DNA from: Herbaspirillum sp. RTI4
Lineage (GTDB): Bacteria; Pseudomonadota; Gammaproteobacteria; Burkholderiales; Burkholderiaceae_D
DNA length: 64,000 bases
Direction of reading: 5' to 3'
Assembly: GCF_034313965.1 (NCBI RefSeq)
Contig: NZ_JAVIWQ010000002.1
Span: 310,001 to 374,000 of the forward strand
Below, in pieces: positions 7,357 to 30,361 of the stretch. Every line of letters begins with the position of its first letter. The stretch's first letter is position 1. The notes beneath the pieces are model-generated. The model did not search any database. It was not told where the DNA came from and saw only the letters and a program-made list of their open reading frames with translations. A program made the translations under genes and the position numbers.

Positions 7357-8028
7357 ATGGAGCGCACCGTGAAGCAAGAAATTGATTTATTGATCGACTA
7401 CCCCAAAGCCAAGCGCAATGTCGAAGAACGCGGCGCAGGAAAAACCGAAGAAGATCGCGCCATTGCGCGTCAGTTCGGCAAAGAGTTTTTTGATGGCGAC
7501 CGTCGCAACGGCTACGGCGGATTCAATTATTTCCCGCGCTTCTGGCAGCCAGTCATTCCGACGCTGCAACAGCATTTCGGGCTGACTGCCGCCAGTTCGG
7601 TCCTCGATGTCGGCTGCGCCAAAGGCTTCATGCTGCACGATCTGGCGGCGTTAATTCCTGGCATCACAGTCAAGGGTCTCGACGTCTCGGCCTACGCAAT
7701 CGAACATGCCATCGATGACATGCAGCAGCATGTCCAAGTCGCCGATGCGCGTCACCTGCCCTTTGAAGACAAGTCGTTTGACGTCGTCATTTCCATCAAC
7801 ACCGTCCACAATCTGAATCGCGCAGACTGCGCCCAAGCGCTGCGGGAAATAGAAAGAGTAAGCAAGGGTAAGTCCTACATCACTGTCGACGCCTATCGCA
7901 GCGAAGAAGAAAAAATCCGCATGTTTGCCTGGAACCTGACGGCGCAAACGATTATGTCCGTCGATGAATGGAAAGCCTTTTTCGACGAAGTCGGTTACAC
8001 CGGAGATTACTTCTGGTTTATTCCATGA
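7357..8028 (+). CDS. Class I SAM-dependent methyltransferase
   Basis: 223 residues. The SAM loop is 'VLDVGCAKGFMLHDL' (about residue 80), followed by 'VKGLDVSAYAIEHA' and 'LPFEDKSFDVVISINTVHNL', the usual Methyltransf_11 motifs. The N-terminal 70 residues are charged and have no recognised domain. The stop overlaps the start of the E1 alpha gene (ATGA), so it belongs to the cluster operon. It may methylate the sugar made here; the target is unknown. Confidence 0.75.
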   Translation: MERTVKQEIDLLIDYPKAKRNVEERGAGKTEEDRAIARQFGKEFFDGDRRNGYGGFNYFPRFWQPVIPTLQQHFGLTAASSVLDVGCAKGFMLHDLAALIPGITVKGLDVSAYAIEHAIDDMQQHVQVADARHLPFEDKSFDVVISINTVHNLNRADCAQALREIERVSKGKSYITVDAYRSEEEKIRMFAWNLTAQTIMSVDEWKAFFDEVGYTGDYFWFIP

Positions 8029-13632: not shown

Positions 13633-14339
13633 AAGCCCTTCTCCTGGCAGCCGGATTCGGCACGCGACTTCGGCCACTCACCAACACTATCCCTAAGTGC
13701 CTTGTCCCGATTCACGGCCAACCATTGCTGGATATGTGGCTAGAACGTTTGACCGCCGCTGGGATTGGCCCTTTCCTGATCAACACGCATTATTTAAGCG
13801 AACAGGTAAGTGCTTATGTTGAGGGCAGTCCTTATCGCGATCAAACGATTCTGGTGCATGAACCAGTTCTGCTCGGAACTGCCGCAACATTGATTGCTCA
13901 TCTGGATTTTTTCGACGATGAAGATGGTTTGCTGATCCATGCGGACAACTATTGCCTTGCAGACTTCAAGGGCTTTCTTCAAGCACATCGCCAGCGCCCT
14001 AATGGATGCCTGATGAGCATGATGACGTTCCGTACTGACACACCCTCTTCGTGCGGCATCGTCACGCTGAACGAACAAAATGTCGTGATCGGATTTGAAG
14101 AAAAGTGTGAACATCCAAATGGAAATCTTGCCAATGGCGCAGTCTATCTTCTGTCGGGCGAACTCATAGCTTTGCTTAACAAGAGCTGCGGAAATATCAC
14201 CGACTTTAGTAATCAGGTACTGCCGGGGCTACTAGGCAAAATATACGCATACGAAACTTTGGCTCCGTTGATCGATATCGGGACCCCTGAAAATTATGCA
14301 AAAGCAAACCAACTCGCGCGGGACCGTAGGCCTTATTAA
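13629..14339 (+). CDS. Sugar-1-phosphate nucleotidyltransferase, HddC-like
   Basis: 236 residues, NTP_transferase fold. 'LLLAAGFGTRLRPLTNTIPKCLVPI' is the nucleotide-binding loop with the catalytic Arg and Lys; 'LLIHADNYC' carries the metal-binding Asp; 'GFEEKCEHPNGNLANGAVYLL' is the sugar loop. Size and motifs resemble HddC (heptose 1-phosphate guanylyltransferase) and other short mannose-1-phosphate guanylyltransferases. It is coupled to the upstream fusion gene. The nucleotide (GTP, CTP or other) cannot be decided by eye. CDP would suit the CDP-glucose dehydratase downstream, but that gene is 9 kb away. Confidence 0.75.
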   Translation: MKALLLAAGFGTRLRPLTNTIPKCLVPIHGQPLLDMWLERLTAAGIGPFLINTHYLSEQVSAYVEGSPYRDQTILVHEPVLLGTAATLIAHLDFFDDEDGLLIHADNYCLADFKGFLQAHRQRPNGCLMSMMTFRTDTPSSCGIVTLNEQNVVIGFEEKCEHPNGNLANGAVYLLSGELIALLNKSCGNITDFSNQVLPGLLGKIYAYETLAPLIDIGTPENYAKANQLARDRRPY

Positions 14340-14408
14340 GTTATGCAAGTGCTTCCTAAACGATATTTTTCACATTAAAAAATTATTCAACCCTCTATAA
14401 GTTTAATT

Positions 14409-15596
14409 ATGCGCACATACGCCAAAGATATTGAGCATCGTCATCATTGTGTTATTTGCGAAGCGTTAATTTCTCCGATAATCAATCTTCCCAAATTACC
14501 GTTAACCGACTCGTTTAGTCGAGTCCCAGTTTCAGATCCATTAATGAGCGTCGACCAGCAGCTGCTTTTTTGTCCGGCATGCGGGCATGGGCAACTAGAG
14601 ACTTTAATCGCTCCAAATGTTTTATACGGGTCTAACTATTGCTTCCGTACATCAACGAGCACAAGTGCCCGAAAAGGGACTGAGTTTTTTTTATCCGTCA
14701 TCAATGAAGTTGCACCCGAGCGTCAATTTCGCTGCGTTCTGGATTTGGGCTGCAATGATCTTTTCTTGCTGGATTTACTGAAGGATAGAGCCGATTTTAG
14801 AGTTGGCATTGATCCTGTCTGGGAAAATCGCGAGAGCGATCGTGAGGATCAATCGATACAAATATTTGGCATGAATTTTGAAGACGTCGATTTACAGCAA
14901 CTCCCGGCGAAACCCGACCTGATCGTTTGCCGCCACACCCTTGAACATATTATCGATCCTTGCCGTGTTGTGAAGGCATTGATGGATATTGCTGCTGATG
15001 ATGCGGTATTTATTTTTGAAGTTCCTGGTTTCGACGGCCTAATTCAGCGATTCAGATTCGACCAAATTTTCCACCAGCACGCCCAGTATTTCACCTTGGC
15101 GTCCTTCCTCAAATTATTGGAAAAGACTGGCGGAAGACATTTACTGCATCGATATAACTTCCATGATTGGTGTGGGATGGCGGTGGCGTTTGTGAAGGGC
15201 CCGGCTGACATCTGCAAGGATGTGAAGCACTGGACGCAGACAGAAATCATTAGCCGTTATACGAACTTCCAAAAACAAATGTCTATCACGCGCGAGTTAT
15301 TAGATTTCCACACGGGATTACCGTTATATGGATATGGTGCAGCCCAAACCCTGCCCATACTTGGTTATCACATGAATACCGATTTTGGTCAGTTAATTGC
15401 AGTAATTGATGATGATGATGAAAAAGATGGCATCGGTTATTGGAATCTCCCGGTGAAGGTTGTCCCAGCTCGTAAAGTAGGCGACCTCCATGATGCGGCG
15501 GTTCTTATTACCGCCATCGATAACGTGCAGCCAATCATGAAGAAATTACTTACGAACCGGCCACGGCATATCTTGGTGCCGCTCAATATCATCTGA
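14409..15596 (+). CDS. Sugar C-methyltransferase (NovU/TylCIII type)
   Basis: 395 residues with the three-part layout of sugar C-methyltransferases: an N-terminal zinc domain (Cys14/Cys17 and Cys55/Cys58), a central SAM domain ('VLDLGCNDLFLLDLLK', 'RHTLEHIIDP') and a C-terminal Rossmann-like domain ('LPLYGYGAAQTLPILGY'). Relatives methylate C3 of 4-keto-6-deoxy sugars to give branched sugars. The region is more AT-rich than the flanking housekeeping genes. It ends with a TGATG overlap to the next gene. Confidence 0.8.
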   Translation: MRTYAKDIEHRHHCVICEALISPIINLPKLPLTDSFSRVPVSDPLMSVDQQLLFCPACGHGQLETLIAPNVLYGSNYCFRTSTSTSARKGTEFFLSVINEVAPERQFRCVLDLGCNDLFLLDLLKDRADFRVGIDPVWENRESDREDQSIQIFGMNFEDVDLQQLPAKPDLIVCRHTLEHIIDPCRVVKALMDIAADDAVFIFEVPGFDGLIQRFRFDQIFHQHAQYFTLASFLKLLEKTGGRHLLHRYNFHDWCGMAVAFVKGPADICKDVKHWTQTEIISRYTNFQKQMSITRELLDFHTGLPLYGYGAAQTLPILGYHMNTDFGQLIAVIDDDDEKDGIGYWNLPVKVVPARKVGDLHDAAVLITAIDNVQPIMKKLLTNRPRHILVPLNII

Positions 15597-16423
15597 TGGT
15601 GCAGTCTGTATCAAGCAGGTTTGATCAATTTAATGAAAATTGGAATCTTATGGATTTGGGAATTGTGGGTCGGCGTGCACTTGTTACTGGAGCCGGACGC
15701 GGATTGGGACGCGCTATTGCGCAAGCTTTGGCGAGTGAGGGGGTAAAGGTAGCATGTGTCTCTCGCACTATCGCAGATATCGATGGTTTGATGGAGAGCA
15801 TTGGCGGAGTTGCTGCGGGACATCTTGGCATTGCAATGGATTTGATGCCAGAAGGTGCGCCAGCAAACCTGCTGCTCAAGATGGCTGATTTTGGGCCGTT
15901 AGACATAGTGGTTCACAACGCAGGCGGCACGCTGGATATTTCAGATCCTTTTTGCTCGATTGAGGATTGGCGCAAAATATATCGCTTCAATTTTGAATTG
16001 GCCGTGGAGCTGAATTGCCTGATTATTCCTGGCATGCAACAACGCAAATGGGGGCGCATCTGCCACATCTCTTCCATCTCAGCGATGGAAAATCACGGTC
16101 CGGTTCCCTACTGCGCAATGAAGGCGGCATTAACGGCATACACCCGCAGTATGGGCGGCGTCGTGGCTCCGGATGGCGTGGTTCTGACTGCGGTATTACC
16201 TGGTGCCGTATTTACCGAAGGCGGGTACTGGGATCAGGCCTCGACGGAACGTCCGGAACACGTTAAGAAATATCTCGGCGAGCGACAGCGTATTGGTCGA
16301 TTTGGTCGGCCCGAGGAGATAGGCAATTTTGTTACTTATTTGTGTTCTGAATTAGCATCATTCAATACGGGTAGCATCGTCCCGATCGACGGTGGTCAAG
16401 GCAGGGGGTATTTCGGACAATGA
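15596..16423 (+). CDS. Short-chain dehydrogenase/reductase
   Basis: A classical SDR: 'VTGAGRGLGRAIA' cofactor loop, NAG in 'VVHNAGG', 'HISSISAM' with the Ser and YCAMK with Tyr/Lys, and an 'IDGGQGRG' C-terminus. The ATG at 15596 overlaps the previous stop. Most relatives would start at the ATG at 15650 ('MDLGIVGRRALVTG'), which has a weak GGAA upstream, so the first 18 residues are uncertain. Likely reduces or oxidises a keto group on a sugar of this cluster. Confidence 0.8.
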   Translation: MVQSVSSRFDQFNENWNLMDLGIVGRRALVTGAGRGLGRAIAQALASEGVKVACVSRTIADIDGLMESIGGVAAGHLGIAMDLMPEGAPANLLLKMADFGPLDIVVHNAGGTLDISDPFCSIEDWRKIYRFNFELAVELNCLIIPGMQQRKWGRICHISSISAMENHGPVPYCAMKAALTAYTRSMGGVVAPDGVVLTAVLPGAVFTEGGYWDQASTERPEHVKKYLGERQRIGRFGRPEEIGNFVTYLCSELASFNTGSIVPIDGGQGRGYFGQ

Positions 16424-17226
16424 ACAGTATTTCTCACTCAAATGACACAGTTCTGAATAAGGATTTGCGTCGAAAAATAATTGATATGGTCGTTGCCGGT
16501 GAAGACGGGCATATTCCAAGCGCTTTTTCTATTCTCGACATCATCACATTGCTCTATCGTGACATCTTGAAAATTGATGCAGTCAATCCTGAATGGGTGG
16601 ATCGGGACTATTTCATCTTATCCAAAGGGCATGGATGCTTGGCCCAGTATGTCAATCTTCATCGTCACGGCTTTATTACGGATCATGACATTGCCATGTT
16701 TTGCAAGCGTGGAGGGATTCTTGGTGAGCACCCTGACCGCACAAAAATTCCAGGCATCGAGGCTTCCACTGGCTCCCTTGGCCACGGATTGAGCTTTACC
16801 GTCGGTATCGCATTGGGTTTGAAAATCCAGTCACTCAATAATCGTTTGTTTGTTTTGTTGGGGGATGGCGAATGTCAGGAGGGGACGGTGTGGGAGGCAG
16901 TCAATGTCGCGCGAAACCGTCAGCTAGGTAACCTGTGCGCTATTGTGGATTGGAATCAATCCGCGATGCAATTAATGCCCGTAGATGATATGCCTAAAAA
17001 ATGGGCAGCCTTCGGCTGGAACGTGCAGGTTGTTGATGGGCATAGCGAAAGTGAAATTGCCGATGCGCTGCGGAATATTGAATTTAAGAAAGATGGAATT
17101 CCCTCCGTCATTATTGCAAAAACGATAAAGGGGAAAGGAGTATCTTTGCTGGAAGGCCATGGAATGTGGCACCACCGCATACCTAATCCCACTGAATATA
17201 AACAAATTATGGAAGCGCTATCGTGA
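16420..17226 (+). CDS. Transketolase, N-terminal (ThDP) subunit
   Basis: 268 residues covering the transketolase pyrophosphate domain only: 'SKGHGCLAQY', 'GSLGHGLSFTVGIALG', and the ThDP motif from GDG (148-150) to Asn179. The pyrimidine domain is in the next gene. Two-gene transketolases are common in archaea and in sugar or antibiotic clusters. The start overlaps the SDR stop (ATGA). With its partner it should transfer a two-carbon ketol group. The housekeeping-type, single-chain cbbT is at 56244-58259. Confidence 0.85.
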   Translation: MNSISHSNDTVLNKDLRRKIIDMVVAGEDGHIPSAFSILDIITLLYRDILKIDAVNPEWVDRDYFILSKGHGCLAQYVNLHRHGFITDHDIAMFCKRGGILGEHPDRTKIPGIEASTGSLGHGLSFTVGIALGLKIQSLNNRLFVLLGDGECQEGTVWEAVNVARNRQLGNLCAIVDWNQSAMQLMPVDDMPKKWAAFGWNVQVVDGHSESEIADALRNIEFKKDGIPSVIIAKTIKGKGVSLLEGHGMWHHRIPNPTEYKQIMEALS

Positions 17227-18143
17227 GCAAATCACTCCGTCAACAATTTGCCGATACCCTGACGTCGATCGGGAAAGAAGATTCTCAGCTGGTAGTGATG
17301 GTGGGGGATATCAGCCATGGCATTCTCAAACCATTTGCCGAAGCATGCCCCGATAGGTTTTATAACATTGGAATATTAGAACCAACCATGGTGAGCATGG
17401 GGGCGGGTTTGGCTGCGGCGGGACTTTGCCCGGTCATTCATACAATTGCCCCCTTTTTGATAGAGCGGTCCTTTGAACAAATCAAGCTTGATTTTTGTTA
17501 CCACAAATTACCTGGCAATATCGTCACCGTAGGCAGTGCTTTTGATTACTCAAATCTGGGATGCACGCATCATTGCTACGGAGATTTTGCGTTATTAAAA
17601 ACACTGCAAAGAATTCAAATATGCTTCCCCGCAAGCGCCATTGAATTTGACCAATTATTCCGACAAGCTTATCGCAATGACTTATTGACGGTTTACCGGA
17701 TGGCCGGACATCCACATCCGATTCAATTCAAAGCAGAAGACATTGTTTTTGGCAAGGCCATCAAAATCCATGATGGTTCTGATGTCACCCTCATTGCAAC
17801 TGGCCCTCAGCTTAAAACCGCACTCGATGCACGTGAAAAACTTTCTGCGCGAGGCATCCTGGCAGAAGTTATCTATGTTCATACTATCCGTCCGCTTGAC
17901 ACAGAGATGATCCAAGCCAGTGTGGAAAAAACGAGGAAAGTGGTGGTCATTGAAGAGCACATGATGTCCGGAGGTTTGGGAGATGACGTTCTTCGCGCAA
18001 CTTATCAGATTCCTGGAATGAAATTTCACTCAGTTTCTATTCCGGATGAATTTGTAACGGGTTACGGGACTTACGAGGAACTCTGCGAATCCTGTGGTTT
18101 AACGGCTGAAGCAGTGATAACGGCTATTGGCGCCTGGGAATAA
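17223..18143 (+). CDS. Transketolase, C-terminal (pyrimidine) subunit
   Basis: 306 residues from a GTG that overlaps the N-subunit stop. The pyrimidine-domain motif 'FYNIGILEPTMVSMGAGLAAAGLCPVIHTIAPF' includes the catalytic Glu, and the C-terminal domain runs from 'DVTLIATGPQLKTALDA' to 'VVIEEHMMSGGLGD'. Together with the upstream gene it forms a complete enzyme. The 4 bp overlap and separate starts show a true split pair rather than a frameshift. The role in the cluster is inferred: making or modifying a sugar by two-carbon transfer. Confidence 0.85.
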   Translation: MSKSLRQQFADTLTSIGKEDSQLVVMVGDISHGILKPFAEACPDRFYNIGILEPTMVSMGAGLAAAGLCPVIHTIAPFLIERSFEQIKLDFCYHKLPGNIVTVGSAFDYSNLGCTHHCYGDFALLKTLQRIQICFPASAIEFDQLFRQAYRNDLLTVYRMAGHPHPIQFKAEDIVFGKAIKIHDGSDVTLIATGPQLKTALDAREKLSARGILAEVIYVHTIRPLDTEMIQASVEKTRKVVVIEEHMMSGGLGDDVLRATYQIPGMKFHSVSIPDEFVTGYGTYEELCESCGLTAEAVITAIGAWE

Positions 18144-18207: not shown

Positions 18208-19305
18208 ATTAACATTCAACGTAAAGCTCGGTATGACGCTGTTCTGAAGCGCATGCGTCATCCGGATAAACGGACTTGGATCATCATGCTTCCAACCTCG
18301 ATAGGGGAAACGGCATTAGTCTGCTCATTTGCCGAGGCTTTCGTTAAAAAGCATGGTTATGGGATTACTCTTGTGGTGAAGCCTGAGCACTTTGCTTTAA
18401 CACAAATGTATCCGGGCAGGTTTGAACAAGTGATCGTGATGGAGCTAGATGAGATGGCTCAGGCCATGCGGTATTTCCCCCCGCATCAATTCGAAGTCGA
18501 TGTTCCATTTGCCGCATCATGCTGTCATCTTGGCGATGCGCGCATTGATTCAATCTGCTACCTGATGAAATTTCCTGGCCGCGGCGGCCTGAATTATCTT
18601 GATATGTTTCGCCATTTGCTCATGTTACCTTGGGATGCCCGCATAGAACGCCCCAAGGTTCCTGCGGACTGGCTTGTTAAAGCGCAAAATTACGCAAAAG
18701 AAATTGGATTGGTGCCAAACAAATCCATTATTTTATTTCCAGCCACCTCGTCAGATCCCCGAAAATGCCCAGATATTTTGTGGAATACACTCGTGGCGCG
18801 GTTAAAGACCAAGGGTTACAAAATTTTCTGCAACATGACTGGCGGAATACATAAACCTCAAACAATGCCGATAGAGGGAACTACCCCCATCGAAGTAAGC
18901 ATGGAGATGGCGCTACCATTAGTCAGCTTGGCAGGCGGGTCTGTTTGTACCGGCCATGGAATGCAGTTTCTCATCACACTTGGCGGCCAATTTCAAAGGA
19001 TGACCTCATTTTTCCCATTGACTGGAAATAGTAAAGATTATGAACAGGATGGCCATCTTTACGCATCGACGATGACTCAATCGCAATTGATGGCACCGGA
19101 AATGTACCTAAATATTCCATACATGGAATATGGCATTTCTACGGAAGCGTCCGATGAAGAAATAGAGCGTATCGCCATTGCGGCAGCAGACCAATCCGCC
19201 TTAGATCCAAATTGTTACCGTCATTTTTCCGCGCCAGGAGTTTTGTATGTGGATGCCCACGCCGATTGGCTAAGCAAATTGATCGAACCAATAAAGAGAC
19301 AGTGA
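18208..19305 (+). CDS. Glycosyltransferase-like protein (GT9/heptosyltransferase-like), ATT start
   Basis: 365 residues if read from an ATT at 18208; the first ATG in frame is 18253. An AGGAGA ribosome site (18197-18202) sits 5 bp before the ATT and nothing similar precedes the ATG. The 15 extra residues align without gaps to the N-terminus of the paralogue at 21592-22695. The two are about 60% identical by eye over the next 60 residues. 'LPTSIGETALVCSFAEAF' resembles the GT9 N-terminal loop and 'IILFPATSSDPRKCPDILWNTLVARL' the GT9 C-domain start. A heptosyltransferase role would suit the cluster, but the family call is tentative. A terminator follows directly. Confidence 0.6.
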   Translation: MNIQRKARYDAVLKRMRHPDKRTWIIMLPTSIGETALVCSFAEAFVKKHGYGITLVVKPEHFALTQMYPGRFEQVIVMELDEMAQAMRYFPPHQFEVDVPFAASCCHLGDARIDSICYLMKFPGRGGLNYLDMFRHLLMLPWDARIERPKVPADWLVKAQNYAKEIGLVPNKSIILFPATSSDPRKCPDILWNTLVARLKTKGYKIFCNMTGGIHKPQTMPIEGTTPIEVSMEMALPLVSLAGGSVCTGHGMQFLITLGGQFQRMTSFFPLTGNSKDYEQDGHLYASTMTQSQLMAPEMYLNIPYMEYGISTEASDEEIERIAIAAADQSALDPNCYRHFSAPGVLYVDAHADWLSKLIEPIKRQ

Positions 19306-21591: not shown

Positions 21592-22695
21592 TTATGACTG
21601 CCTTATTGGAATCGGCGCAATGAGAGCACGAAGCCATTGAGCATTGCCACTAATGTAATCACTTCCATCGGCTGAATAGCGTTGAAAACGGTCTGGATTG
21701 CCTAATGACTGATCAGCAATGGATCTCGCCAGCCGAATCAGTTCCTTTTCGGAACCAGAAAACGGGACTCCAAATTCAGAAAATGGAATATCCACGCATA
21801 CCTCTGGTGCCATAAATTGCATTTTAGAGAGATGTGCCGGATAGATCCGTTCATTGAGCAGAACATCTTCATCATTGGCGGTCATCGGAAACAAAACCGT
21901 CATCTCGTCAAACAGCCCACCCATCGCTTGCCAAAACAACATCCCATTAGCTCCCCCGATGACCTTCCCAATTAAACTGATTAATGGAAGGCCGAGCTGC
22001 ATCGATACATCAATAGGAATTGTGCCCGCAATCGGCATGGTGTCGGGTTGAAATTGTCCCCCCTTCATGTTGCAAAGTACCTGGTAGCCGTTTTGATTGA
22101 GCCTTGCAGCAAGCGTTGTCCAAAAAATATCAGGGAATTGCGTTATCGCAGAATTATTTGCGGGGAAAAGGATGATCGCATGTTGAGTATCAATCCCAGC
22201 CATAGTTACAAAATTCTGCGCTTGATCCATCCACTCGACTGGCACAATAGGTCGCTCAAGGCGCGCATCCCATGGCAACTTGAAAATGTGGCGATAAGTA
22301 TCAGTAAAAGTAAGGCCTCCGCGACCTGGATACTTGAACAGGTAAGAAATGGCATCTGCTCGGGCATCGCCAAGGTTGTAAAAAAACCCCGCAAGCGGGA
22401 CGTCAATGTCAAATTGGTGAGGGGGGCAATGCCTCATGATTTCCAAAATGACATCACGATCCTCCACAAGAACCTGCTCAAAACGATTCGGATACATCTC
22501 CGTAATCGCCAGATGATGCGGTTGCACCACCATAGTAATGCTGTAGCCGTGCGCCTTAACGAAAGCGTCGGAGAGGGCGCACACAGTCACGGTTTCACCT
22601 ATGGAGGCAGGATTTAAAATTATCCAAGTCCGTTTGTAAGGATGCCTCAGCTTTTTAAGCATTTCGTTAAACCAAGCCTGTCCTCGGACACTCAT
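21592..22695 (-). CDS. Glycosyltransferase-like protein (paralogue of 18208-19305)
   Basis: 367 residues, paralogous over its whole length to the gene at 18208-19305, including 'KRTWII', 'SIGET', 'HGY.IT.VV', 'MYP.RFEQV' and 'KFPGRGGL/KYPGRGGL'. The N-terminal 'NPASIGETVTVCALSDAF' and the 'IILFPANNSA..FPDIFWTTLAARL' stretch suggest a GT-B, GT9-like fold. It is the only - strand gene of the glycan cluster. An AAGGAG lies about 10 bp before the ATG. The duplicate pair brackets the AT-rich dioxygenase-methyltransferase gene. The enzyme activity is inferred from fold-like motifs only. Confidence 0.6.
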   Translation of the reverse strand: MSVRGQAWFNEMLKKLRHPYKRTWIILNPASIGETVTVCALSDAFVKAHGYSITMVVQPHHLAITEMYPNRFEQVLVEDRDVILEIMRHCPPHQFDIDVPLAGFFYNLGDARADAISYLFKYPGRGGLTFTDTYRHIFKLPWDARLERPIVPVEWMDQAQNFVTMAGIDTQHAIILFPANNSAITQFPDIFWTTLAARLNQNGYQVLCNMKGGQFQPDTMPIAGTIPIDVSMQLGLPLISLIGKVIGGANGMLFWQAMGGLFDEMTVLFPMTANDEDVLLNERIYPAHLSKMQFMAPEVCVDIPFSEFGVPFSGSEKELIRLARSIADQSLGNPDRFQRYSADGSDYISGNAQWLRALIAPIPIRQS

Positions 22696-23060: not shown

Positions 23061-23171
23061 ATGAAAGCCGTGACACTAACCGAAGCTGCGGACACCTGCA
23101 CCATCGAAGAAATCGCATCACTCCCTCCGCAGAACTACCCGATAGATCGCCAGATTTTCTACCAAGTGTAG
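23061..23171 (+). CDS. Small ORF upstream of the CDP-glucose dehydratase
   Basis: 36 codons from an ATG at 23061; the TAG stop overlaps a GTG that could start the next gene (TAGTG). The peptide is acidic in the middle ('DTCTIEEIA') and ends 'QIFYQV'. In many clusters the gene before rfbG is rfbF, and the peptide begins 'MKAV' like RfbF, but the rest does not match it. It may be a remnant, a leader or chance. No function is proposed. Confidence 0.35.
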   Translation: MKAVTLTEAADTCTIEEIASLPPQNYPIDRQIFYQV

Positions 23172-23185
23172 TGGAAAGCAATCCC

Positions 23186-24265
23186 ATGATCCAAGAATTC
23201 TGGCAAGGCAAAAAAGTATTCATCACCGGCCACACCGGCTTCATGGGCAGTTGGCTTACGCTCTGGCTGAACCGGCTCGGTGCCGAAGTGCACGGTTACT
23301 CACTCCCGGCCCCCACCCAACCCAGCATGTTTCACCTGGCACGGCTGCAAAACTGCGCCACCACTACCACCGGCGACATCGGCGATCTGCAATACCTGCG
23401 CGATATCCTCGCCGCAGCCAAGCCAGACATCGTGTTCCATCTGGCAGCGCAAGCTATCGCGCTCGATTCCTATGCCGCGCCAATCGAAACATTCGCCACC
23501 AATGTGATGGGCACGGCACATTTGTTGGAAGCGGTACGACACACGCCCAGCGTGCGCTCGGTTGTCATCGTCAGCAGTGACAAATGCTATGAAAACCGCG
23601 AATGGGTCTGGGGCTATCGCGAAGAAGAAAAAATGGGGGGACATGACCCCTACAGCGGCAGTAAAGGTGCGGCAGAAATAGTCACCGCCTCCTACCGCAG
23701 CTCCTTTTTTGGCCCGAATAGCAGCTCACAGACCGCCATCGCCACTGCGCGCGCGGGCAACGTGATCGGCGGCGGCGATTTCGCCACGGATCGCTTGATC
23801 CCCGACCTCATCCGCGCGCTGGAAAAAAATCAGCCGATCATGATTCACAATCCGCACGCGATACGCCCATGGCAATTCGTGCTTGATCCCCTGGCTGGTT
23901 ATATGCAACTGGCGCAGCGGCTCTACGAATCGGGCAGGAAATATGCCGAAGGATGGAACTTCGGCCCCGCCGATTCCGATTTGCAAACCGTCAGCCAACT
24001 GTGCGCCGCCTTCAACCATTCGCTGCAAAAAAACGAATGCCAAACGGCGGAAATTATCCTCGCCGCCCCCGCCGAAGCACCGCACGAAACCTCTTTTCTG
24101 CGGCTGGACATTTCCAAATCGCGACAACATCTCGACTGGATGCCCAAGCTGGAGCTGCATACCGCGCTCGAACTCACTGCTCAGTGGTATAGCGCATACC
24201 TGAACAATGAAGATCTGCGCGAACTCAGCGAACAGCAGATCGATTTTTTTCAGGGCTTTGGATAA
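23186..24265 (+). CDS. rfbG: CDP-glucose 4,6-dehydratase
   Basis: 359 residues from the ATG at 23186, with GGAAAG upstream; a GTG at 23171 would add five residues. 'FWQGKKVFITGHTGFMGSWLTLWL' is the RfbG N-terminus, 'VVIVSSDKCYENREWVWGYREEE' and 'PYSGSKGAAEIV' hold the catalytic Ser/Thr, Tyr and Lys, and 'ARAGNVIGGGDFATDRLIPD' is the RfbG-specific loop. It turns CDP-glucose into CDP-4-keto-6-deoxyglucose, the precursor of 3,6-dideoxy sugars and of yersiniose. The usual partner RfbF is not next to it. RfbH is not in the window. Confidence 0.88.
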   Translation: MIQEFWQGKKVFITGHTGFMGSWLTLWLNRLGAEVHGYSLPAPTQPSMFHLARLQNCATTTTGDIGDLQYLRDILAAAKPDIVFHLAAQAIALDSYAAPIETFATNVMGTAHLLEAVRHTPSVRSVVIVSSDKCYENREWVWGYREEEKMGGHDPYSGSKGAAEIVTASYRSSFFGPNSSSQTAIATARAGNVIGGGDFATDRLIPDLIRALEKNQPIMIHNPHAIRPWQFVLDPLAGYMQLAQRLYESGRKYAEGWNFGPADSDLQTVSQLCAAFNHSLQKNECQTAEIILAAPAEAPHETSFLRLDISKSRQHLDWMPKLELHTALELTAQWYSAYLNNEDLRELSEQQIDFFQGFG

Positions 24266-24411: not shown

Positions 24412-24642
24412 ATGAGTATCGATAATTTTTCCGCCGAATTCGCCGACGCAATTGAAGTCCCACCAGAAACAGTCACTGGCAGCACCGTATTCAAAGATTT
24501 GGAAATTTGGGACTCGCTGGCGATACTGGTCGTCATCGCCATGGTCGACGCGACCTATGACGTCGCCATCACAGGCGACGATCTGAAAAACACCAGCACA
24601 GTGGCAGAGCTACATCAGATCGTCCTGAGCCGGAGCAAATAA
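24412..24642 (+). CDS. Acyl carrier protein
   Basis: 76 residues from the ATG at 24412. Ser35 in 'WDSLAIL' is the phosphopantetheine attachment site (DSL motif). The acidic, helical composition and length fit a stand-alone ACP. Its pairing with two KAS III genes, an SDR and an N-acyltransferase suggests that it carries an acyl group destined for a sugar, rather than serving bulk fatty-acid synthesis. The frame from a GTG at 24361 is longer than any ACP needs. Confidence 0.85.
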   Translation: MSIDNFSAEFADAIEVPPETVTGSTVFKDLEIWDSLAILVVIAMVDATYDVAITGDDLKNTSTVAELHQIVLSRSK

Positions 24643-24664
24643 CACCGGCCGCATTGCCGGTGCA

Positions 24665-25768
24665 ATGAGGGATACGGATGAACAGTTCCTTGCCCGATGT
24701 AGCGGAAAATATTTTCCCCGAATAAAGAATGCGCAGATGTCCATCCCGATTAACAATTACATTGATCCAGCCATATTCGACGAAGAACTGGAAAAAGTTT
24801 TTTCGAGACAGATGTTTATCGCTCATCAAAACGATATCCCGGCAGCCGACGACTATTACAGTTTCCGTGCAGGGAAACGCAGCTACACGCTGCGCAATAT
24901 CGGCGCGCAAAATCGTTTGCTGGACAATGTCTGCCGACACCGATTCAATCTGATCGACCCGCCGGGATTCGGCAACCGGAAATTCCGCTGCGGCTACCAC
25001 GGCTGGACTTACGATGCCGATGGTGGCGCATCGTTCATCCCTTTGCGCAACACCTTCAAGAATCTGCCCGACGATATCCGTCTCACATCTGCGCCGCACG
25101 AAGACATTCACGGCTTCCAGTTCCTCATGCAAGCCGATCCTGCTCGTCGTCAGACTGTCGCCAGACTGCTCACGCAAATGGGAACGCCCGCAGGCGGTCA
25201 TTTTTTCCGTGGCGAAATCCGTCATCAATGCAACTGGAAACTGATCGTTGAAAACGTACTGGATTCCTATCATGTCTCCTTTGTGCATGCATCCACCTTC
25301 AGCAAGGCCGGTTACTCTTCCACCGGTCGCGTCGAACCAGTGCCGCTCAACAGTGAATACGACACTGCGGTAACCCACTATCCCGATGAAGCGAGCGCAA
25401 AGCAAATGCTGCGCATCGTTCGCAACATCACACCGGCATATCGGCATCTGCATATCTTTCCCAATTTATTTCTCAGCATCGGTAGCGAACTAGTGTATTA
25501 CGTCGCCAACGTCATGCCGGTCAGCACAAACGAAAGTGTCCTGCATTACCGTCTTTACCCAACCGAAAAAATGCTGGCACTCACTCCCGGCCTGCGCGAC
25601 TCGTTCATGCAAAGTGCCATTGATCTGACCGCACAAACACTGGAAGAAGACCGCCTGATGCTGGAATCCAATCAGATCGGCCTGCTCTCCGCGCAAGGTG
25701 CTTATACGCTTTGTGAAAACGAATTGCGCATCCGTCATTTTCACGACGCTTACCGGCGCTTTCTATGA
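24665..25768 (+). CDS. Rieske non-heme iron oxygenase
   Basis: 367 residues. The Rieske [2Fe-2S] motif CxH-x16-CxxH is complete (Cys90, His92, Cys109, His112). The catalytic region 'WKLIVENVLDSYHVSFVHAS' holds the two His of the mononuclear iron and the bridging Asp/Asn; a later 'EEDRLMLES' supplies the likely Asp ligand. It should hydroxylate a substrate using electrons from an unlinked reductase. Placed between an ACP and an SDR, the acyl-ACP or acyl-sugar is the likely substrate. An ATG at 24737 is an alternative start. The stop overlaps the next gene (ATGA). Confidence 0.85.
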   Translation: MRDTDEQFLARCSGKYFPRIKNAQMSIPINNYIDPAIFDEELEKVFSRQMFIAHQNDIPAADDYYSFRAGKRSYTLRNIGAQNRLLDNVCRHRFNLIDPPGFGNRKFRCGYHGWTYDADGGASFIPLRNTFKNLPDDIRLTSAPHEDIHGFQFLMQADPARRQTVARLLTQMGTPAGGHFFRGEIRHQCNWKLIVENVLDSYHVSFVHASTFSKAGYSSTGRVEPVPLNSEYDTAVTHYPDEASAKQMLRIVRNITPAYRHLHIFPNLFLSIGSELVYYVANVMPVSTNESVLHYRLYPTEKMLALTPGLRDSFMQSAIDLTAQTLEEDRLMLESNQIGLLSAQGAYTLCENELRIRHFHDAYRRFL

Positions 25769-26502
25769 ACTGTCAAAATAAAACCGTACTGGTAACCGGT
25801 GCCACCTCCGGCATCGGCCATGCCTGCGTCGAGCGATTCATCGCTGCTGGTGCGCATGTTGTTGCCGTTGGCCGCAATCCAGAGCGTCTGGCCGAATTAA
25901 GTGCCTCCTACGGCGCGCAATGCACCGTCATTTCTTACGACCTCGGCGATCCAGACAAATTAACCGAGCTGGTGTCCCAACTGCCGGCATTGGACGGACT
26001 TGTCATGTCCGCCGGCATCACCAAAAGTAATCCCATCAAATTTTTTAACCGTAAAGTATTCGATGAAACGCTGGCGATTAATCTGATCACACCCGTCGTG
26101 TTGGCCGTGGAAATCACGAATGCGAAAAAATTAAGGAATAACGGTTCCATCGTTTTTCTTTCTTCAACGAACGGTACTGCCGGCGGCGTCAAAGGCAGTC
26201 TGGCTTACGCAACGACCAAGGCGGCGCTTGTCGGCGCATCAAAAGTATTGGCGGCAGAACTGAGCGGCAAGGGTATTCGGGTCAACTGCGTCGCACCGGC
26301 AACGATTTCGTCGGAGATGGTGCTGAATTATTTTTCCCAATTATCGGAAGAAGCCATGCAGGCCGACATGCAAAAATATCCTTTAGGTAAACGCTACGGA
26401 AAACCATCCGAAGTGGCCGACCTGATCGCCTATCTGATCTCTGACAGCAGTAGTTTCATTACCGGGCAAACGATCACCATCGATGGTGGTCGCAGCCTGT
26501 GA
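25765..26502 (+). CDS. SDR, FabG-like 3-oxoacyl reductase candidate
   Basis: 245 residues: 'VLVTGATSGIGHACVERF', 'LVMSAGIT', 'VFLSSTNGT' and YATTK, ending 'TITIDGGRSL', the FabG-like layout. Coupled to the Rieske gene by ATGA. Among ACP and KAS III genes, reduction of a 3-oxoacyl-ACP to 3-hydroxyacyl-ACP is the simplest role. A sugar ketone is also possible. Confidence 0.8.
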   Translation: MNCQNKTVLVTGATSGIGHACVERFIAAGAHVVAVGRNPERLAELSASYGAQCTVISYDLGDPDKLTELVSQLPALDGLVMSAGITKSNPIKFFNRKVFDETLAINLITPVVLAVEITNAKKLRNNGSIVFLSSTNGTAGGVKGSLAYATTKAALVGASKVLAAELSGKGIRVNCVAPATISSEMVLNYFSQLSEEAMQADMQKYPLGKRYGKPSEVADLIAYLISDSSSFITGQTITIDGGRSL

Positions 26503-26526
26503 CACGACAAACAAAGAAGGACTGAT

Positions 26527-27594
26527 ATGTACAGTATTGCGGGTGTAGCCATACGCGGCATCGCGGCAGTCGTCCCTAAAGGGATTGAGCGCACGGAGAA
26601 TTACGAAATTCTGACCCCAGAGGAAAGAACGCGCTTTGCCAAAATTACCGGCATCGAAGAACGCCGCGTCGCCAATGCCGCGCAATGCGCGTCCGACTTG
26701 TGCGCCTTTGCGACTGAAGACCTGTTGAAGGGGCTTGAATGGCAAAAGCAGGATGTCGGAATGATGGTTCTGATTACGCAATCTCCCGACTATCCGGTGC
26801 CAGCCACCAGCATCGTGCTGCAAAATAAACTGGGCTTGAACCAGAGCTGCATTTGTTTCGACGTGAATCTGGGTTGCTCCGCCTATCCGTATGGATTGGC
26901 CATCGTGAGCGGCCTGATGAAGTCGCTCGGTATCAAACGCGCGCTGTTGCTCGTCGGTGATGTTTCCACCAAAAGCTGCGCGTATACCGACAAGGGGTCA
27001 TGGCCGCTGTTCAGCGATGCCGGCACCGCCACTGCGCTGGAACTGAGCGACGCCGATGCGCCCATGCAATTCCACTTGATGAACGACGGTGCCGGTTATG
27101 GCGCGATCATTGTGCCGTCGGGCTATGGCGCCTCGCGTGTTCCTATCACCCAAGAACTGCTGGAGCCTGTGCCGCAAGCCGATGGCACGACACGCCATGC
27201 CATGCAACTGGTTTTGCAAGGCGCGGACATTTTTAATTTCGCCATTCGTGAAGCACCGCTGTCGATCAACACCTTGCTCACCACTGCCGGCGTGCCGATA
27301 GGGGATGTCGATTACGTCGTCCTGCATCAAGCGAACAAACTCATCAACGATACGGTCAGGATGAAGATAGGCGCACCGAAGGAACGTGCGCTATCGACAC
27401 TGAAACAGTACGGCAACAGCAGCTCCGCATCGATTCCCTTGACGCTGTGCGCGCATGGCGGACAGTTGCAGGACGCGCCATTGGTCCTGTTGTCCGGCTT
27501 CGGCGTCGGCCTGTCCTGGGGTAGTGCGCTGGTAAAACTGCCGGAGAAATGTTTCTTTTCGCTGAACGAAACTGACCAGGCGTTTGGACAATGA
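26527..27594 (+). CDS. 3-oxoacyl-ACP synthase III-like (first copy)
   Basis: 355 residues of the FabH family. The triad is intact: Cys117 ('NLGCSAYPYG'), His in 'VVLHQANKL' and Asn in 'QYGNSSSASIP'. It condenses an acyl-CoA starter with malonyl-ACP, or transfers acyl groups. Fairly different from the second copy at 28271, so the two probably use different substrates. It begins 24 bp after the SDR. A dedicated sugar-acyl pathway is inferred. Confidence 0.88.
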   Translation: MYSIAGVAIRGIAAVVPKGIERTENYEILTPEERTRFAKITGIEERRVANAAQCASDLCAFATEDLLKGLEWQKQDVGMMVLITQSPDYPVPATSIVLQNKLGLNQSCICFDVNLGCSAYPYGLAIVSGLMKSLGIKRALLLVGDVSTKSCAYTDKGSWPLFSDAGTATALELSDADAPMQFHLMNDGAGYGAIIVPSGYGASRVPITQELLEPVPQADGTTRHAMQLVLQGADIFNFAIREAPLSINTLLTTAGVPIGDVDYVVLHQANKLINDTVRMKIGAPKERALSTLKQYGNSSSASIPLTLCAHGGQLQDAPLVLLSGFGVGLSWGSALVKLPEKCFFSLNETDQAFGQ

Positions 27595-27641
27595 GTCCCC
27601 TCCGATTTGATCATCCGGCCATTTGAATAGGAGCCGCTGCA

Positions 27642-28274
27642 ATGACTAGCTCCACCTCCGCTCCACAGCTGATCATCATCGGTGCCGGCGGCTTCGGTTA
27701 TGAATTACGTGGATTGATACGTCTGCACGGTATGCCATTCGAGGTCATTGGTTTTCTGGACAACGCCAAAACCGGACCAGACATTCTCGGCCCCATCGAT
27801 GGCCACCAGCCACGTTCCGATGCTTTTTACATCGCAGCGATTGGCGATTCCACATTGCGCTTTTCTCTGAGCGACCCGCTAGAAAAAGCAGGCGCTCGCT
27901 TTGCCAATCTGATCTCTCCTTTAGCTGTTCTCGATTCGGCGCTATCGCCCGAAAGCGGTATCGCACTGATCGGCAACAGCGGCATTTCAAACAACGTCAG
28001 TATCGGCGCGCACACTCGAATCCACGGCATGAACGTGATTGGCCACGATACGCGCATAGGAAAATACTGCGCTATCAACGCTTTTGCTTTCGTTGGCGGC
28101 GAAGTGGAAATCGGTTCCTTTGTCACCATTCACCCGCATGCCACGATTTTGCCGCGCATCAAAATCGGCGATGGAGCGATCATCGGTGCTGGCAGCGTGG
28201 TCATCAAGGATGTCGAAGCCCACACCACCGTGTTTGGCAATCCGGCCAAGGTCATCGAACGGCGGCAAGCATGA
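27642..28274 (+). CDS. NeuD/PglD-type sugar O/N-acyltransferase
   Basis: 210 residues. An N-terminal Rossmann-like domain ('LIIIGAGGFGYELRGLI') precedes left-handed beta-helix hexapeptide repeats (about 115-205, for example 'IGNSGISNNVSIGAHTRIHGMNVIGHDTRIG') and ends 'VFGNPAKVIE'. Family members move acetyl or longer acyl groups onto amino sugars. Lying between two KAS III genes and before an aminotransferase, it is the obvious candidate for attaching the ACP-built acyl chain to an amino sugar. Stop overlaps the next start (ATGA). Confidence 0.85.
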   Translation: MTSSTSAPQLIIIGAGGFGYELRGLIRLHGMPFEVIGFLDNAKTGPDILGPIDGHQPRSDAFYIAAIGDSTLRFSLSDPLEKAGARFANLISPLAVLDSALSPESGIALIGNSGISNNVSIGAHTRIHGMNVIGHDTRIGKYCAINAFAFVGGEVEIGSFVTIHPHATILPRIKIGDGAIIGAGSVVIKDVEAHTTVFGNPAKVIERRQA

Positions 28275-29239
28275 ATACGGCTTACCTCCGCGCCATCACA
28301 GTCTGTTTGCCCGCTGCAATAGAGAGCAACGACGATCTGGCACTGAAATATCCTGACTGGAATCCGCGCCGCATCGAAGCCAAAACCGGCATCTATCGTC
28401 GCCATATCGCCGCTGCGGACGAACTGACTTCGTCCCTGGCTATCGGCGCCGCACAGGCGCTGTTTGCGCAGCACGCCATTCGTCCCGAAGATATCGACCA
28501 TCTGATCGTTTGCACGCAAACCCCTGATCACCTGATTCCGTCGACATCGTGCAAAGTGCAGCACGCGCTTGGATTGCCGACCAGCTGCGCAGCATTCGAC
28601 ATCAACATGGGCTGCTCCGGCTTTGTCTACGGTCTGCATGTCGCACGCGCACTGGTGGCCTCGCAAGTGGCGACCAATGTACTGCTGATTAATGCCGATA
28701 CCTACTCCAAGCTGCTGCTGGAAGAGGATTTATCTACCCGCGCACTATTCGGTGATGGCGCGACCGCATCACTGATTTCAGCGCAACCCGGCGGCGCGGC
28801 CATCGGCGCAATCGAGTTAGGGACGGATGGTGCAGGCTATGCCGATTTCATCGCGCATAACTCGGCCATGGCACACGATGCCGACAAAGCGCGCCAGATT
28901 CATATGGACGGCCCGGCCATATTCAATTTCACAATCGAACGTATTCCGGCTGCGCTAGATGCCTTTCTGGCCGCACAGCAATTACAGAAATCGGATATTG
29001 CGTATTTTGTATTTCATCAGGCCAATGCATATATGTTGGAGCACTTGCGCAAAAAAATGGGCATCGATGCCGCGCGGTTTCCGGTTATTCTGGAAGATAT
29101 CGGCAATACTGTCTCAGCTTCGATCCCAACGGTGCTGGCTGGCTTGATGCCGACGCTAAAACAGGGCGATCGTTTGTTACTTGTTGGTTTCGGTGTTGGC
29201 TTGTCGTGGGGCATTTCCCTTCTTACGTGGGATATTTAA
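28271..29239 (+). CDS. 3-oxoacyl-ACP synthase III-like (second copy)
   Basis: 322 residues, FabH family, with Cys115 ('NMGCSGFVYG'), His in 'FVFHQANAY' and Asn in 'DIGNTVSASIP'. Closer in length to standard FabH than the first copy. Coupled to the NeuD-type gene. Two active KAS III genes beside a single ACP suggest two condensations, or one condensation and one acyl transfer. Confidence 0.88.
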   Translation: MNTAYLRAITVCLPAAIESNDDLALKYPDWNPRRIEAKTGIYRRHIAAADELTSSLAIGAAQALFAQHAIRPEDIDHLIVCTQTPDHLIPSTSCKVQHALGLPTSCAAFDINMGCSGFVYGLHVARALVASQVATNVLLINADTYSKLLLEEDLSTRALFGDGATASLISAQPGGAAIGAIELGTDGAGYADFIAHNSAMAHDADKARQIHMDGPAIFNFTIERIPAALDAFLAAQQLQKSDIAYFVFHQANAYMLEHLRKKMGIDAARFPVILEDIGNTVSASIPTVLAGLMPTLKQGDRLLLVGFGVGLSWGISLLTWDI

Positions 29240-29248
29240 AAAAAATTG

Positions 29249-30361
29249 ATGATGAATACGCACCTGCCGATTTACCTTTACGAACAATTTTTCGATCAAG
29301 CAGAAACGGATGCGGTCGCTCTCTGTATGTCCAGAGAGCGGTTCAATGACAACATCGAAATCAATGAATTCCAGGCCGGCTTCTCCCAAAAAATTGGCGT
29401 GCCGCATTCCATCGCCGTTGCCAACGGCAGCTGTGCTTTGCATCTCACGATGCTCACTGCCGGCATCACCGCAGGGGATGAGGTCATTGTTCCCTCACTG
29501 ACTTTTGTCGCCACCGCCAATGCCGTGAGCTATACCGGCGCGCAAGCAATTTTTGCCGACGTCAATCCTGACACCTGGCAAATGGGTGCCGCAGAAGTCG
29601 AGCCACTGATTACATCACGTACCAAAGCCATCATTGCCGTGCATTTATATGGGCATGCCTGCCCCCTGCGCGAGCTGCAGGAGTTGGCCGAACGCCACCA
29701 TTTATTATTGATTGAAGATTGCGCGGAAGCACTTGGCACTACTTATGCAGGTGAGCAGGTTGGCATCCATGCCGATGCCGCCATTTTCAGTTTTTATAAA
29801 AACAAAACTATCACCACTGGCGAAGGCGGCATGGTCATCACCCGCCATGCCAATTGGCATGAACACATCGTCAAACTGAAAAGTCATGGCATGCCCTTGG
29901 ATCGCCGCTTCTGGTATGAAATGGTCGGCTACAACTATCGGATGACCAATGTATCGGCCGCCATCGGTATCGCTCAGTTGGCAAAACTGGATCAATTCAT
30001 TGCCCGCAAACGCAATATCCGAGATCAATATCAAAAGGAACTCCGTAATTTGCCGATTGTTTTCCAGGCCGAAGTTCCGGACAGCGCCAGCGCCTGCTGG
30101 CTGATCTCCATGACTTTATCCAGCGAATCGGTTCGTGATGCCTTGGCGCAATTTCTTCTCGACAGGCAGATCCAATCGCGGCCAGTCTTTTTGCCGGTGC
30201 AACGCTTCCCTATGTATGCGGATGCGACATGGCCTACTCCAGCCGCAGACCGCATCGCCGAGTGTGGATTGTCATTGCCCAGCTGGCCTGGCTTGAGTGA
30301 TCCGCAAATCGACATCATCACCAATGCGATCCAGCTTTTTTTTGCTGAAACGCCTACCTGA
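29249..30361 (+). CDS. DegT/DnrJ/EryC1/StrS sugar aminotransferase
   Basis: 370 residues from the ATG at 29249 (29252 is equally possible). 'VANGSCALHLTML' binds the cofactor phosphate, 'LIEDCAEALGTTY' contains the ring-stacking region and Lys186 in 'NKTITTGEGG' should form the PLP aldimine. Such enzymes put an amino group on a 4-keto or 3-keto nucleotide sugar. RfbG upstream provides a 4-keto-6-deoxy sugar, and the NeuD-type transferase could acylate the amine formed here. The position aminated cannot be read directly. Confidence 0.87.
   Translation: MMNTHLPIYLYEQFFDQAETDAVALCMSRERFNDNIEINEFQAGFSQKIGVPHSIAVANGSCALHLTMLTAGITAGDEVIVPSLTFVATANAVSYTGAQAIFADVNPDTWQMGAAEVEPLITSRTKAIIAVHLYGHACPLRELQELAERHHLLLIEDCAEALGTTYAGEQVGIHADAAIFSFYKNKTITTGEGGMVITRHANWHEHIVKLKSHGMPLDRRFWYEMVGYNYRMTNVSAAIGIAQLAKLDQFIARKRNIRDQYQKELRNLPIVFQAEVPDSASACWLISMTLSSESVRDALAQFLLDRQIQSRPVFLPVQRFPMYADATWPTPAADRIAECGLSLPSWPGLSDPQIDIITNAIQLFFAETPT

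Follow-up and report, generated by a model that had tools for sequence, protein, structure and literature searches.

A Rieske oxygenase clade associated with an acyl carrier protein/KAS III module in a putative sugar N-acylation locus of Herbaspirillum sp. RTI4

Results

Gene content of the locus

The window analysed here is a stretch of 64,000 nucleotides from Herbaspirillum sp. RTI4 (contig NZ_JAVIWQ010000002.1, positions 310,001 to 374,000). Positions 24412-30361 of this window contain a block of seven genes in the order acyl carrier protein (ACP), Rieske oxygenase, short-chain dehydrogenase/reductase (SDR), KAS III, NeuD/VioB-type acyltransferase, KAS III and DegT aminotransferase, which is directly preceded by a CDP-glucose 4,6-dehydratase gene. 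The features are as follows:

23171..24265, + strand, CDP-glucose 4,6-dehydratase (RfbG-type); TIGR02622, 479.8 bits, cut-off 278.45
24412..24642, + strand, dedicated acyl carrier protein with the Ser in WDSL; PP-binding, 27.3 bits, cut-off 20.8
24665..25768, + strand, Rieske non-heme iron oxygenase, alpha-type subunit, cassette clade; Rieske and Ring_hydroxyl_A
25765..26502, + strand, FabG-like SDR, probable 3-ketoacyl-ACP reductase; adh_short_C2, 165.8 bits, and motifs
26527..27594, + strand, KAS III of the KAS1 clade; ACP_syn_III_C and tree
27642..28274, + strand, NeuD/PglD/VioB-type hexapeptide N-acyltransferase; NeuD_NnaD TIGR03570, 164.7 bits, cut-off 160.8
28271..29239, + strand, KAS III of the KAS2 clade; ACP_syn_III and tree
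29246..30361, + strand, DegT/DnrJ/EryC1/StrS sugar aminotransferase with the PLP lysine; PF01041, 368.8 bits

All seven assignments within the block are backed by Pfam or NCBIfam models, and the gene calls agree with the place, strand and order given in an earlier note on this DNA, although the coordinates of that note omitted the adjoining dehydratase gene. From the ACP to the DegT gene, the successive spacings are 22, -4, 24, 47, -4 and 6 bp, so that the 4 bp overlaps described before lie at the Rieske/SDR and the acyltransferase/second KAS III junctions. The Rieske gene has an alternative start at ATG 24737, and the protein database lists the enzyme in its 343-aa form; ATG 29249 is a possible start of the DegT gene.

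The motifs are intact, as had been claimed for the two KAS III, the Rieske and the PLP enzymes. The catalytic residues are Cys117-His267-Asn297 in the KAS1-clade and Cys115-His249-Asn279 in the KAS2-clade protein, the SDR contains TGxxxGIG and YxxxK, and the PLP lysine of DegT lies within SFYKNK. The Rieske protein has CxH...CxxH and N-x2-D-x2-H-x4-H, and 47 of the 47 rows with at least 180 bits conserve the ligands of the [2Fe-2S] cluster, the 2-His-1-Asp site and the bridging Asp/Glu. The block thus unites an ACP with its serine, KAS III proteins with Cys-His-Asn and a FabG-like SDR, and this acyl module is adjoined by a VioB/PglD-type acyltransferase and a sugar aminotransferase.

The probable sugar side of the pathway

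The CDP-glucose 4,6-dehydratase is the sole match over the cut-off in the genome, and it is likely the enzyme that makes the 4-keto substrate of DegT. An RfbF-type gene is present elsewhere in the genome (472.4 bits, cut-off 300.25), which means that both genes of the CDP-hexose pathway are available. The sugar handled by the block is probably CDP-linked, which the earlier note had missed, and would be a CDP-4-amino sugar. The best solved relatives of DegT and of the acyltransferase are perosamine synthase (3bn1, 271.3 bits, with 3dr7 and 3dr4 also among the closest chains) and VioB (7txp, 93.1 bits). VioB and perosamine synthase act in dTDP- and GDP-sugar pathways, respectively, whereas the sugar of the window appears to be of the CDP type.

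A Rieske clade linked to the acyl module

Other genomes, including those of distant bacteria, contain this set of genes in at least five different orders, and this recurrence indicates that the block is more than a chance arrangement. The search proposed in the earlier note for the same gene order elsewhere hence recovered the set, but not a fixed order. In a scan for the Rieske gene, all 27 loci scoring 354-442 bits were cassettes with a KAS III gene within 6 kb, versus 0 of 53 at 105-170 bits; one profile, A3, was partly built from loci that it afterwards scored. A full cassette is also present in genome G287, which was outside the training sample. All 10 Rieske matches among 199 Flavobacterium genomes are in cassettes, and a cassette is also present in Flavobacterium johnsoniae CI04 (locus L023). 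Among 399 genomes of the order to which the window belongs, 11 matches were found in 10 genomes; 10 of these matches adjoin a KAS III gene, and the remaining one lies next to an SDR and a NeuD-type transferase gene on a contig of 3.9 kb.

A clean split by score between the cassette Rieskes and all others holds at 286 bits or more, but fails for the group from the order search (174-220 bits), because the cassette Rieske of locus L203 has only 174 bits and overlaps with non-cassette Rieskes at 166-175 bits. Quick trees, which have long branches, separate the two groups nevertheless. In the first, for which 26 of the 53 non-cassette loci were taken and nine Flavobacterium rows were omitted as near-identical, 27 cassette and 29 non-cassette rows are parted by a branch with 97% support; in the second, from which two long-branched non-cassette rows were additionally left out, a single 99% branch splits 38 cassette from 27 non-cassette rows. 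The nearest solved Rieske protein by sequence is the oxygenase subunit of carnitine monooxygenase (6y8j), which shares the Rieske and 2-His-1-carboxylate motifs with the window enzyme but is remote from it (profile score 105 bits), the latter being placed in the separate, cassette-linked clade.

While the Rieske enzyme stays with the acyl module, its sugar partners change: they include a CDP-glucose dehydratase, a DesI-like DegT protein, and a LegC/PglE-like DegT protein accompanied by Polysacc_synt_2 and Bac_transf genes. Within the stretches examined at the 27 scanned cassette loci, a NeuD-type gene is present in 26 and a DegT gene in 26; no NeuD-type enzyme was recognised in the cassette locus L013. 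At L117, L118 and L126, a GNAT-like gene (under the Pfam cut-off in L118) lies beside the module in place of the NeuD-type enzyme.

A Pfam search revealed no electron-transfer partner of the Rieske enzyme among the genes of the block. The view that such reductases are absent from every cassette is contradicted by two of the 45 cassette loci, L025 and L031 of Weeksellaceae. There, the SDR and DegT genes are separated by a gene on the opposite strand for a reductase of the type that partners Rieske oxygenases, with FAD, NAD and 2Fe-2S domains. No close relative of this reductase is encoded within the window; the unlabelled gene families that recur in the 27 cassette loci were annotated in part.

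The number and type of KAS III genes

The presence of two KAS III genes fits two condensations and thus a C6 chain, a reading that the earlier note had missed. In Flavobacterium, two KAS III genes are found in 10 of 10 Rieske-bearing genomes versus 2 of 14 Rieske-less ones (Fisher test, kinship ignored; G055 was left out as its contigs end at the locus). The view that the Rieske enzyme always requires two KAS III proteins is broken by eight Rieske-bearing cassettes with a single one (L016, L030 and L178-L183), and the Rieske enzyme is therefore not tied to a C6 chain. According to a KAS III tree, from which one short fragment fell out, the single KAS III is of the KAS1 type in 8 of 8 loci with a Rieske gene and in 11 of 14 without one; KAS2 stands alone in three Rieske-less loci, one of which is on a broken contig.

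The KAS2 clade is closer to housekeeping FabH than the KAS1 clade, and the fabH model gives 247.2 bits for the KAS2-clade and 180 bits for the KAS1-clade gene of the window, both under the cut-off of 292.1. The genome has a separate FabH (406.9 bits) at C2:2013066, with an ACP gene about 2 kb away at 2016002. We therefore rejected a role of the block in housekeeping type II fatty acid supply, and among the loci examined we saw no homologues that serve fatty acids or a product unrelated to glycans.

Discussion

Related systems

The core module encountered here is of a kind already known from other bacteria. In Pseudomonas syringae pv. tabaci 6605, the viosamine island comprises vioA, vioM, vioT, vioS, vioB, vioR and acp; of these, acp, vioS, vioR, vioB and vioA are described as leading to N-(3-hydroxy-1-oxobutyl)viosamine, and vioA, vioB, vioT and vioR mutants lack modified viosamine (PMC3927599). 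As described there, this island and orfA-orfE of the PAK glycosylation island resemble the window in uniting an ACP, a KAS III, a FabG-like reductase, a VioB-type acyltransferase and a DegT protein; the viosamine island differs in having one KAS III, dTDP-viosamine and a flagellin glycan, and the word Rieske does not occur in the text of the account (PMC3927599). The wfpC-wfpG genes of the Flavobacterium psychrophilum O-polysaccharide locus, proposed to provide 3,5-dihydroxyhexanoyl on Qui2NAc4N, resemble the window in their described gene content, with two KAS III, an ACP, a ketoreductase and a PglD-type transferase; their sugar is UDP-Qui2NAc4N, unlike the CDP-sugar predicted for the window, and the terms oxygenase and hydroxylase are absent from the main text (PMC6519341). 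Genome G181 (locus L125) has the gene types of wfpC-wfpG in the same order, without the cassette Rieske.

These three systems, together with the relatedness to perosamine synthase and VioB, support the core of the earlier reading, in which DegT makes an amino sugar, a short chain is built on the dedicated ACP, and a NeuD-type enzyme joins the two. What appears to be new is the Rieske clade that travels with this acid-building module. Among the matches listed in our literature searches, no paper ties a Rieske oxygenase to an ACP/KAS III sugar cassette, nothing relevant concerns dihydroxybutanoyl groups, and the two papers with the term trihydroxyhexanoyl concern, by their titles, marine peptides and solid-phase synthesis rather than glycans. 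A review on the Oxalobacteraceae O-antigen contains none of six searched terms (PMC9834719).

A possible route to an oxidised N-acyl group

We infer the following chemistry, including the chain length and the position and timing of the oxygenation. RfbF and the CDP-glucose 4,6-dehydratase would produce CDP-4-keto-6-deoxyglucose, of which DegT would aminate C4. On the ACP, the two KAS III proteins and the SDR may perform two rounds of malonyl extension and keto reduction, giving approximately 3,5-dihydroxyhexanoyl-ACP, to which the Rieske enzyme would add one more oxygen, most likely while the chain is ACP-bound; its electrons would come from a host reductase, which is proposed because the block contains none. 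The NeuD/VioB-type enzyme would then N-acylate the amino sugar, and the product would enter a surface glycan. That the cassette as a whole builds a C6 hydroxyacyl chain on the ACP, oxidises it with the Rieske enzyme and attaches it to a surface-glycan sugar of the 4-amino-4,6-dideoxy type is the account we lean towards, with belief somewhat outweighing doubt.

The gene order varies and the sugar genes change while the Rieske gene stays, which makes the acyl chain, rather than the sugar, the most likely substrate. The same observations weigh against oxidation of the sugar ring or the amine, a reading suggested by the position of the Rieske gene in a sugar locus and by the known N-oxygenation by Rieske enzymes: the enzyme is constant with ACP, KAS and SDR while aminotransferase and dehydratase types change, and 15 Flavobacterium genomes have a related KAS III without the cassette Rieske, even though their loci L119-L125 share the PglE/PglF-type genes of Rieske-bearing loci. 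We consider such sugar oxidation improbable. Hydroxylation of the N-acyl group after its transfer, on the nucleotide sugar, with the ACP genes building the unmodified chain only, would fit the linkage between Rieske enzyme and module equally well and has a chemical precedent, as CMP-Neu5Ac hydroxylase hydroxylates the N-acetyl group on a nucleotide sugar. However, since the partners include CDP-, DesI-like and LegC/PglE-like types, a single Rieske clade would then have to handle nucleotide sugars of differing bases and sugars; this argument is not decisive, and we regard late hydroxylation as rather unlikely but as deserving serious attention. Rieske, ACP and KAS III proteins also occur in natural-product clusters, which could mean that the product of the block is a membrane lipid or a free small molecule and that the position of the genes in a polysaccharide island is incidental. 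We give this very little credence, in view of the NeuD-type and DegT genes at nearly all scanned cassette loci and of the FabH and ACP that the genome has of its own.

Under the preferred reading, oxidation of the ACP-bound chain, a distinct Rieske family of Pseudomonadota, Bacteroidota and one bacterium of the Vampirovibrionales may hydroxylate ACP-tethered short chains. In LPS and flagellin, 4-amino sugars would then carry polyhydroxy N-acyl groups such as trihydroxyhexanoyl, of C6 length with two KAS III and of C4 length with one, and these glycans would be undescribed ones. We put this wider proposal forward tentatively, with doubt slightly prevailing. Unusual N-acyl groups help to set the serotype and the recognition of bacterial surface glycans, and little is known about their oxidation. 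If true, the coupling of a Rieske enzyme to acyl assembly on an ACP would represent a new route to sugar decoration, and an ACP-bound acyl chain would, to our knowledge, be a new type of substrate for Rieske enzymes. Gene content would also suggest the chain length, through the number of KAS III genes, and the oxygenation, through the presence or absence of the Rieske gene.

The earlier note had likened the block to flagellin glycosylation islands. For the window locus this likeness is not supported, as the two flagellin genes lie at C2:1.809 and 1.829 Mb, about 1.4-1.5 Mb from the window (0.31-0.37 Mb); it does hold for four related cassette loci (L176, L178, L008 and L203), which contain a flagellin gene.

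The gene block and its surroundings

Family searches identified the cassette genes as ACP, Rieske ring-hydroxylating oxygenase, FabG-like SDR, KAS III, NeuD/PglD/VioB-type acyltransferase, KAS III and DegT aminotransferase, confirming the seven genes named in the earlier note. They are tightly packed, with a 4-bp overlap in two pairs, and the active-site motifs, which had been described as complete, proved to be intact on checking. The main features are:

24412-30361, + strand: seven-gene cassette
23171-24265: CDP-glucose 4,6-dehydratase, directly upstream of the cassette (479.8 bits, cut-off 278.45)
about 4.7-31.9 kb of the window: polysaccharide island with sugar-kinase, nucleotidyltransferase, epimerase and methyltransferase genes and a split transketolase

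The dehydratase is the only one over the cut-off in the genome, and the only glucose-1-phosphate cytidylyltransferase over the cut-off (472.4 bits) is located ~610 kb away. The island is followed by a nucleotidyltransferase plus hexapeptide gene and an amidotransferase plus SIS gene, Pfam domains that can be read as a glmU-like and glmS-like layout. Within the island, a methyltransferase with a putative zinc-binding N-terminus, an SDR and the split transketolase, whose two genes encode 268 and 306 aa, lie consecutively at 14409-18143, and their product may be a branched or two-carbon-extended sugar. Another thiamine-dependent pair, with E1_dh and transketolase-type domains, is present at 7968-10062. 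Genes at 18253-19305 and 21592-22695, on opposite strands, encode look-alike proteins of 350 and 367 aa that had no Pfam match at E 0.1.

The core of the cassette is of a known kind

The core of the cassette is of an already known kind. The viosamine island of P. syringae pv. tabaci contains vioA (DegT), vioS (KAS III), vioB (acyltransferase), vioR (reductase) and acp, and the PAK glycosylation island has counterparts of its genes (PMC3927599). The modified viosamine, N-(3-hydroxy-1-oxobutyl)-2-O-methylviosamine, is absent from vioA, vioB, vioT and vioR mutants (PMC3927599). In F. psychrophilum, wfpC and wfpE (KAS), wfpD (ACP), wfpF (reductase) and wfpG (PglD homologue) are the proposed makers and transferrers of a 3,5-dihydroxyhexanoyl group, with UDP-Qui2NAc4N as the acceptor (PMC6519341); the structure of this group is also given in a review (PMC3210612). 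In both examples the KAS III gene count agrees with the chain length, one corresponding to C4 and two to C6, and the window has two, as in wfpC-G, whereas the viosamine island has one. The best solved relatives are VioB for the acyltransferase of the window and perosamine synthase for its DegT protein.

What is new with respect to this known core is the Rieske oxygenase as a recurring member. The words "oxygenase" and "hydroxylase" do not occur in the main text of the wfp paper (PMC6519341), and no published account of a Rieske enzyme as a recurrent cassette member was found in a search mostly confined to papers outside subscription. The cassette with its Rieske gene yields a chemical prediction that is open to test.

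The Rieske gene recurs with the cassette in distant groups

The gene block is real, rare and recurs in distant groups. A protein search for the Rieske gave 39 relatives, 20 of which formed the first alignment. Scanning one genome per species (84,980 species) matched at least 591 stretches, and the best 80 loci were taken. With a profile built partly from those same loci, 27 of the 80 scored 354-442 bits. Each of these 27 has its cassette partners no more than 6 kb away, and two KAS III genes lie in that range in 24 (the exceptions are L016, L030 and L019, a 5.6-kb contig). The other 53 scored 105-170 bits, with a KAS III within 6 kb in none and an SDR in 10. Among the hosts of the 27 are Dyella, Rhodanobacter, Stenotrophobium, Massilia, Sphingomonas, Sphingobium, Methylobacterium, Flavobacterium, Chryseobacterium and a Vampirovibrionales MAG. 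The order of the genes varies from group to group, so the linkage of Rieske and cassette goes beyond an inherited order.

Among 199 Flavobacterium genomes, 25 have a cassette-type KAS III (E ≤ 1e-75). A cassette-type Rieske (287-400 bits) was found in 10, beside the cassette KAS III in every case, and six more genomes have only weaker Rieske matches (115-132 bits). Fifteen genomes carry the KAS III without a cassette-type Rieske; one of them, G181, has the order KAS2-ACP-KAS1-SDR-NeuD, which agrees with the gene types of wfpC-G. Two KAS III genes are present in all 10 Rieske-bearing genomes vs 2 of 14 Rieske-less ones, a count that excludes G055, whose contigs end there; the G198 stretch likewise stops at a contig end.

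In the class of the window's organism (369 genomes), five genomes had a match at E ≤ 1e-45: the window and G287 are in cassettes, and the remaining three (166-175 bits) are outside cassettes. In the order (399 genomes), 11 Rieske matches were found in 10 genomes, window included. Ten lie in KAS III-bearing cassettes, two of them in the single locus L177. The eleventh (G627) has just SDR and NeuD beside it on a contig of 3.9 kb. A second search, set to 399 genomes of the order, gave KAS1-type KAS III at E ≤ 1e-95 in 11, nine of them shared with the Rieske list; of the remaining two, G872 has a cassette Rieske (174 bits) missing from the first list, and G670 has a cassette without Rieske on a 14-kb contig.

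In the first Rieske tree (94 rows), a branch with 97% SH-aLRT support divides 27 cassette rows from 29 non-cassette ones; in the second (103 rows), to which the order-level cassettes were added, a 99% branch divides 38 from 27. Both trees were built quickly and contain some long branches, and in each 38 rows without context information stand outside these counts. Judged from these sequences, the cassette Rieskes may have a single origin.

Cassette variants

In the KAS tree, KAS1 and KAS2 form separate clades. The 22 two-KAS loci with a Rieske gene all have one member in either clade, and L127 has a third KAS. The order search also brought up a second Rieske group in the one-KAS cassettes L178-L183 and L203. 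These contain ACP, a KAS1-type KAS III, NeuD, a single SDR or two, and a Rieske gene scoring 174-220 bits; together with L016 and L030, they show that the Rieske is not confined to two-KAS cassettes. Two SDR genes are present in L180-L183 and L203, and L180 has an additional hexapeptide transferase after the Rieske.

Two cassettes have two Rieske genes, hinting at two oxidations: L177 (8447-11999; 325 and 211 bits, opposite strands) and L011 (10001-14807; additional Rieske at 13590-14807). In L117, L118 and L126 a GNAT-like acetyltransferase gene adjoins the module and no NeuD-type enzyme was found, so that a GNAT-like enzyme has likely replaced the NeuD-type one; in L013 that position is occupied by a 217-aa gene of no assigned family. 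An alpha/beta hydrolase, possibly an editing thioesterase, adjoins KAS2 in the Sphingomonas/Sphingobium cassettes L014 (5979-6803) and L033 (5985-6821).

Target of the Rieske oxygenase and its electron donor

The Rieske gene is constant beside ACP, KAS III and SDR, whereas the sugar genes vary between cassettes. A CDP-glucose dehydratase is found in the window and in L178, which also has RfbF- and RfbH-type genes over the cut-off; L176 and L009 have a DesI-like DegT (503 and 497 bits, under the 650 cut-off), and L017 and L129 a LegC-family DegT (369 and 377 bits, under the 420 cut-off). Bac_transf- and Polysacc_synt_2-family genes, which might be read as PglC-like and PglF-like, are present in L017, L127, L128 and others. 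Since the Rieske keeps its acyl genes while the sugar genes change, action on the sugar is unlikely, and the substrate would be either the acyl-ACP or the finished N-acyl sugar.

The seven-gene block of the window has no reductase, and its Rieske would presumably receive electrons from a host reductase. A candidate donor is present in the Weeksellaceae cassettes L025 (13181-14254) and L031 (13165-14253), where a reductase with FAD_binding_6, NAD_binding_1 and Fer2 domains is encoded on the opposite strand in the interval from SDR to DegT. Neither the window nor any of the remaining 43 cassette loci has a close relative of it; L012 has a weak match ~8 kb from its Rieske.

Flagellin genes near cassettes

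The cassette had also been likened to Pseudomonas flagellin glycosylation islands. At the window locus this link fails, the two flagellins of the genome being ~1.4-1.5 Mb away. A screen of 44 cassette loci plus L203 and L204 found flagellin genes in the fetched stretches of L176, L178 and L008 (domains confirmed) and L203 (by similarity), so the idea suits some relatives. The L176 flagellin (4670-5602), from a host of the same family as the window's organism, is nearest to lateral-type models, although under the cut-off, and lies beside a complete Rieske cassette.
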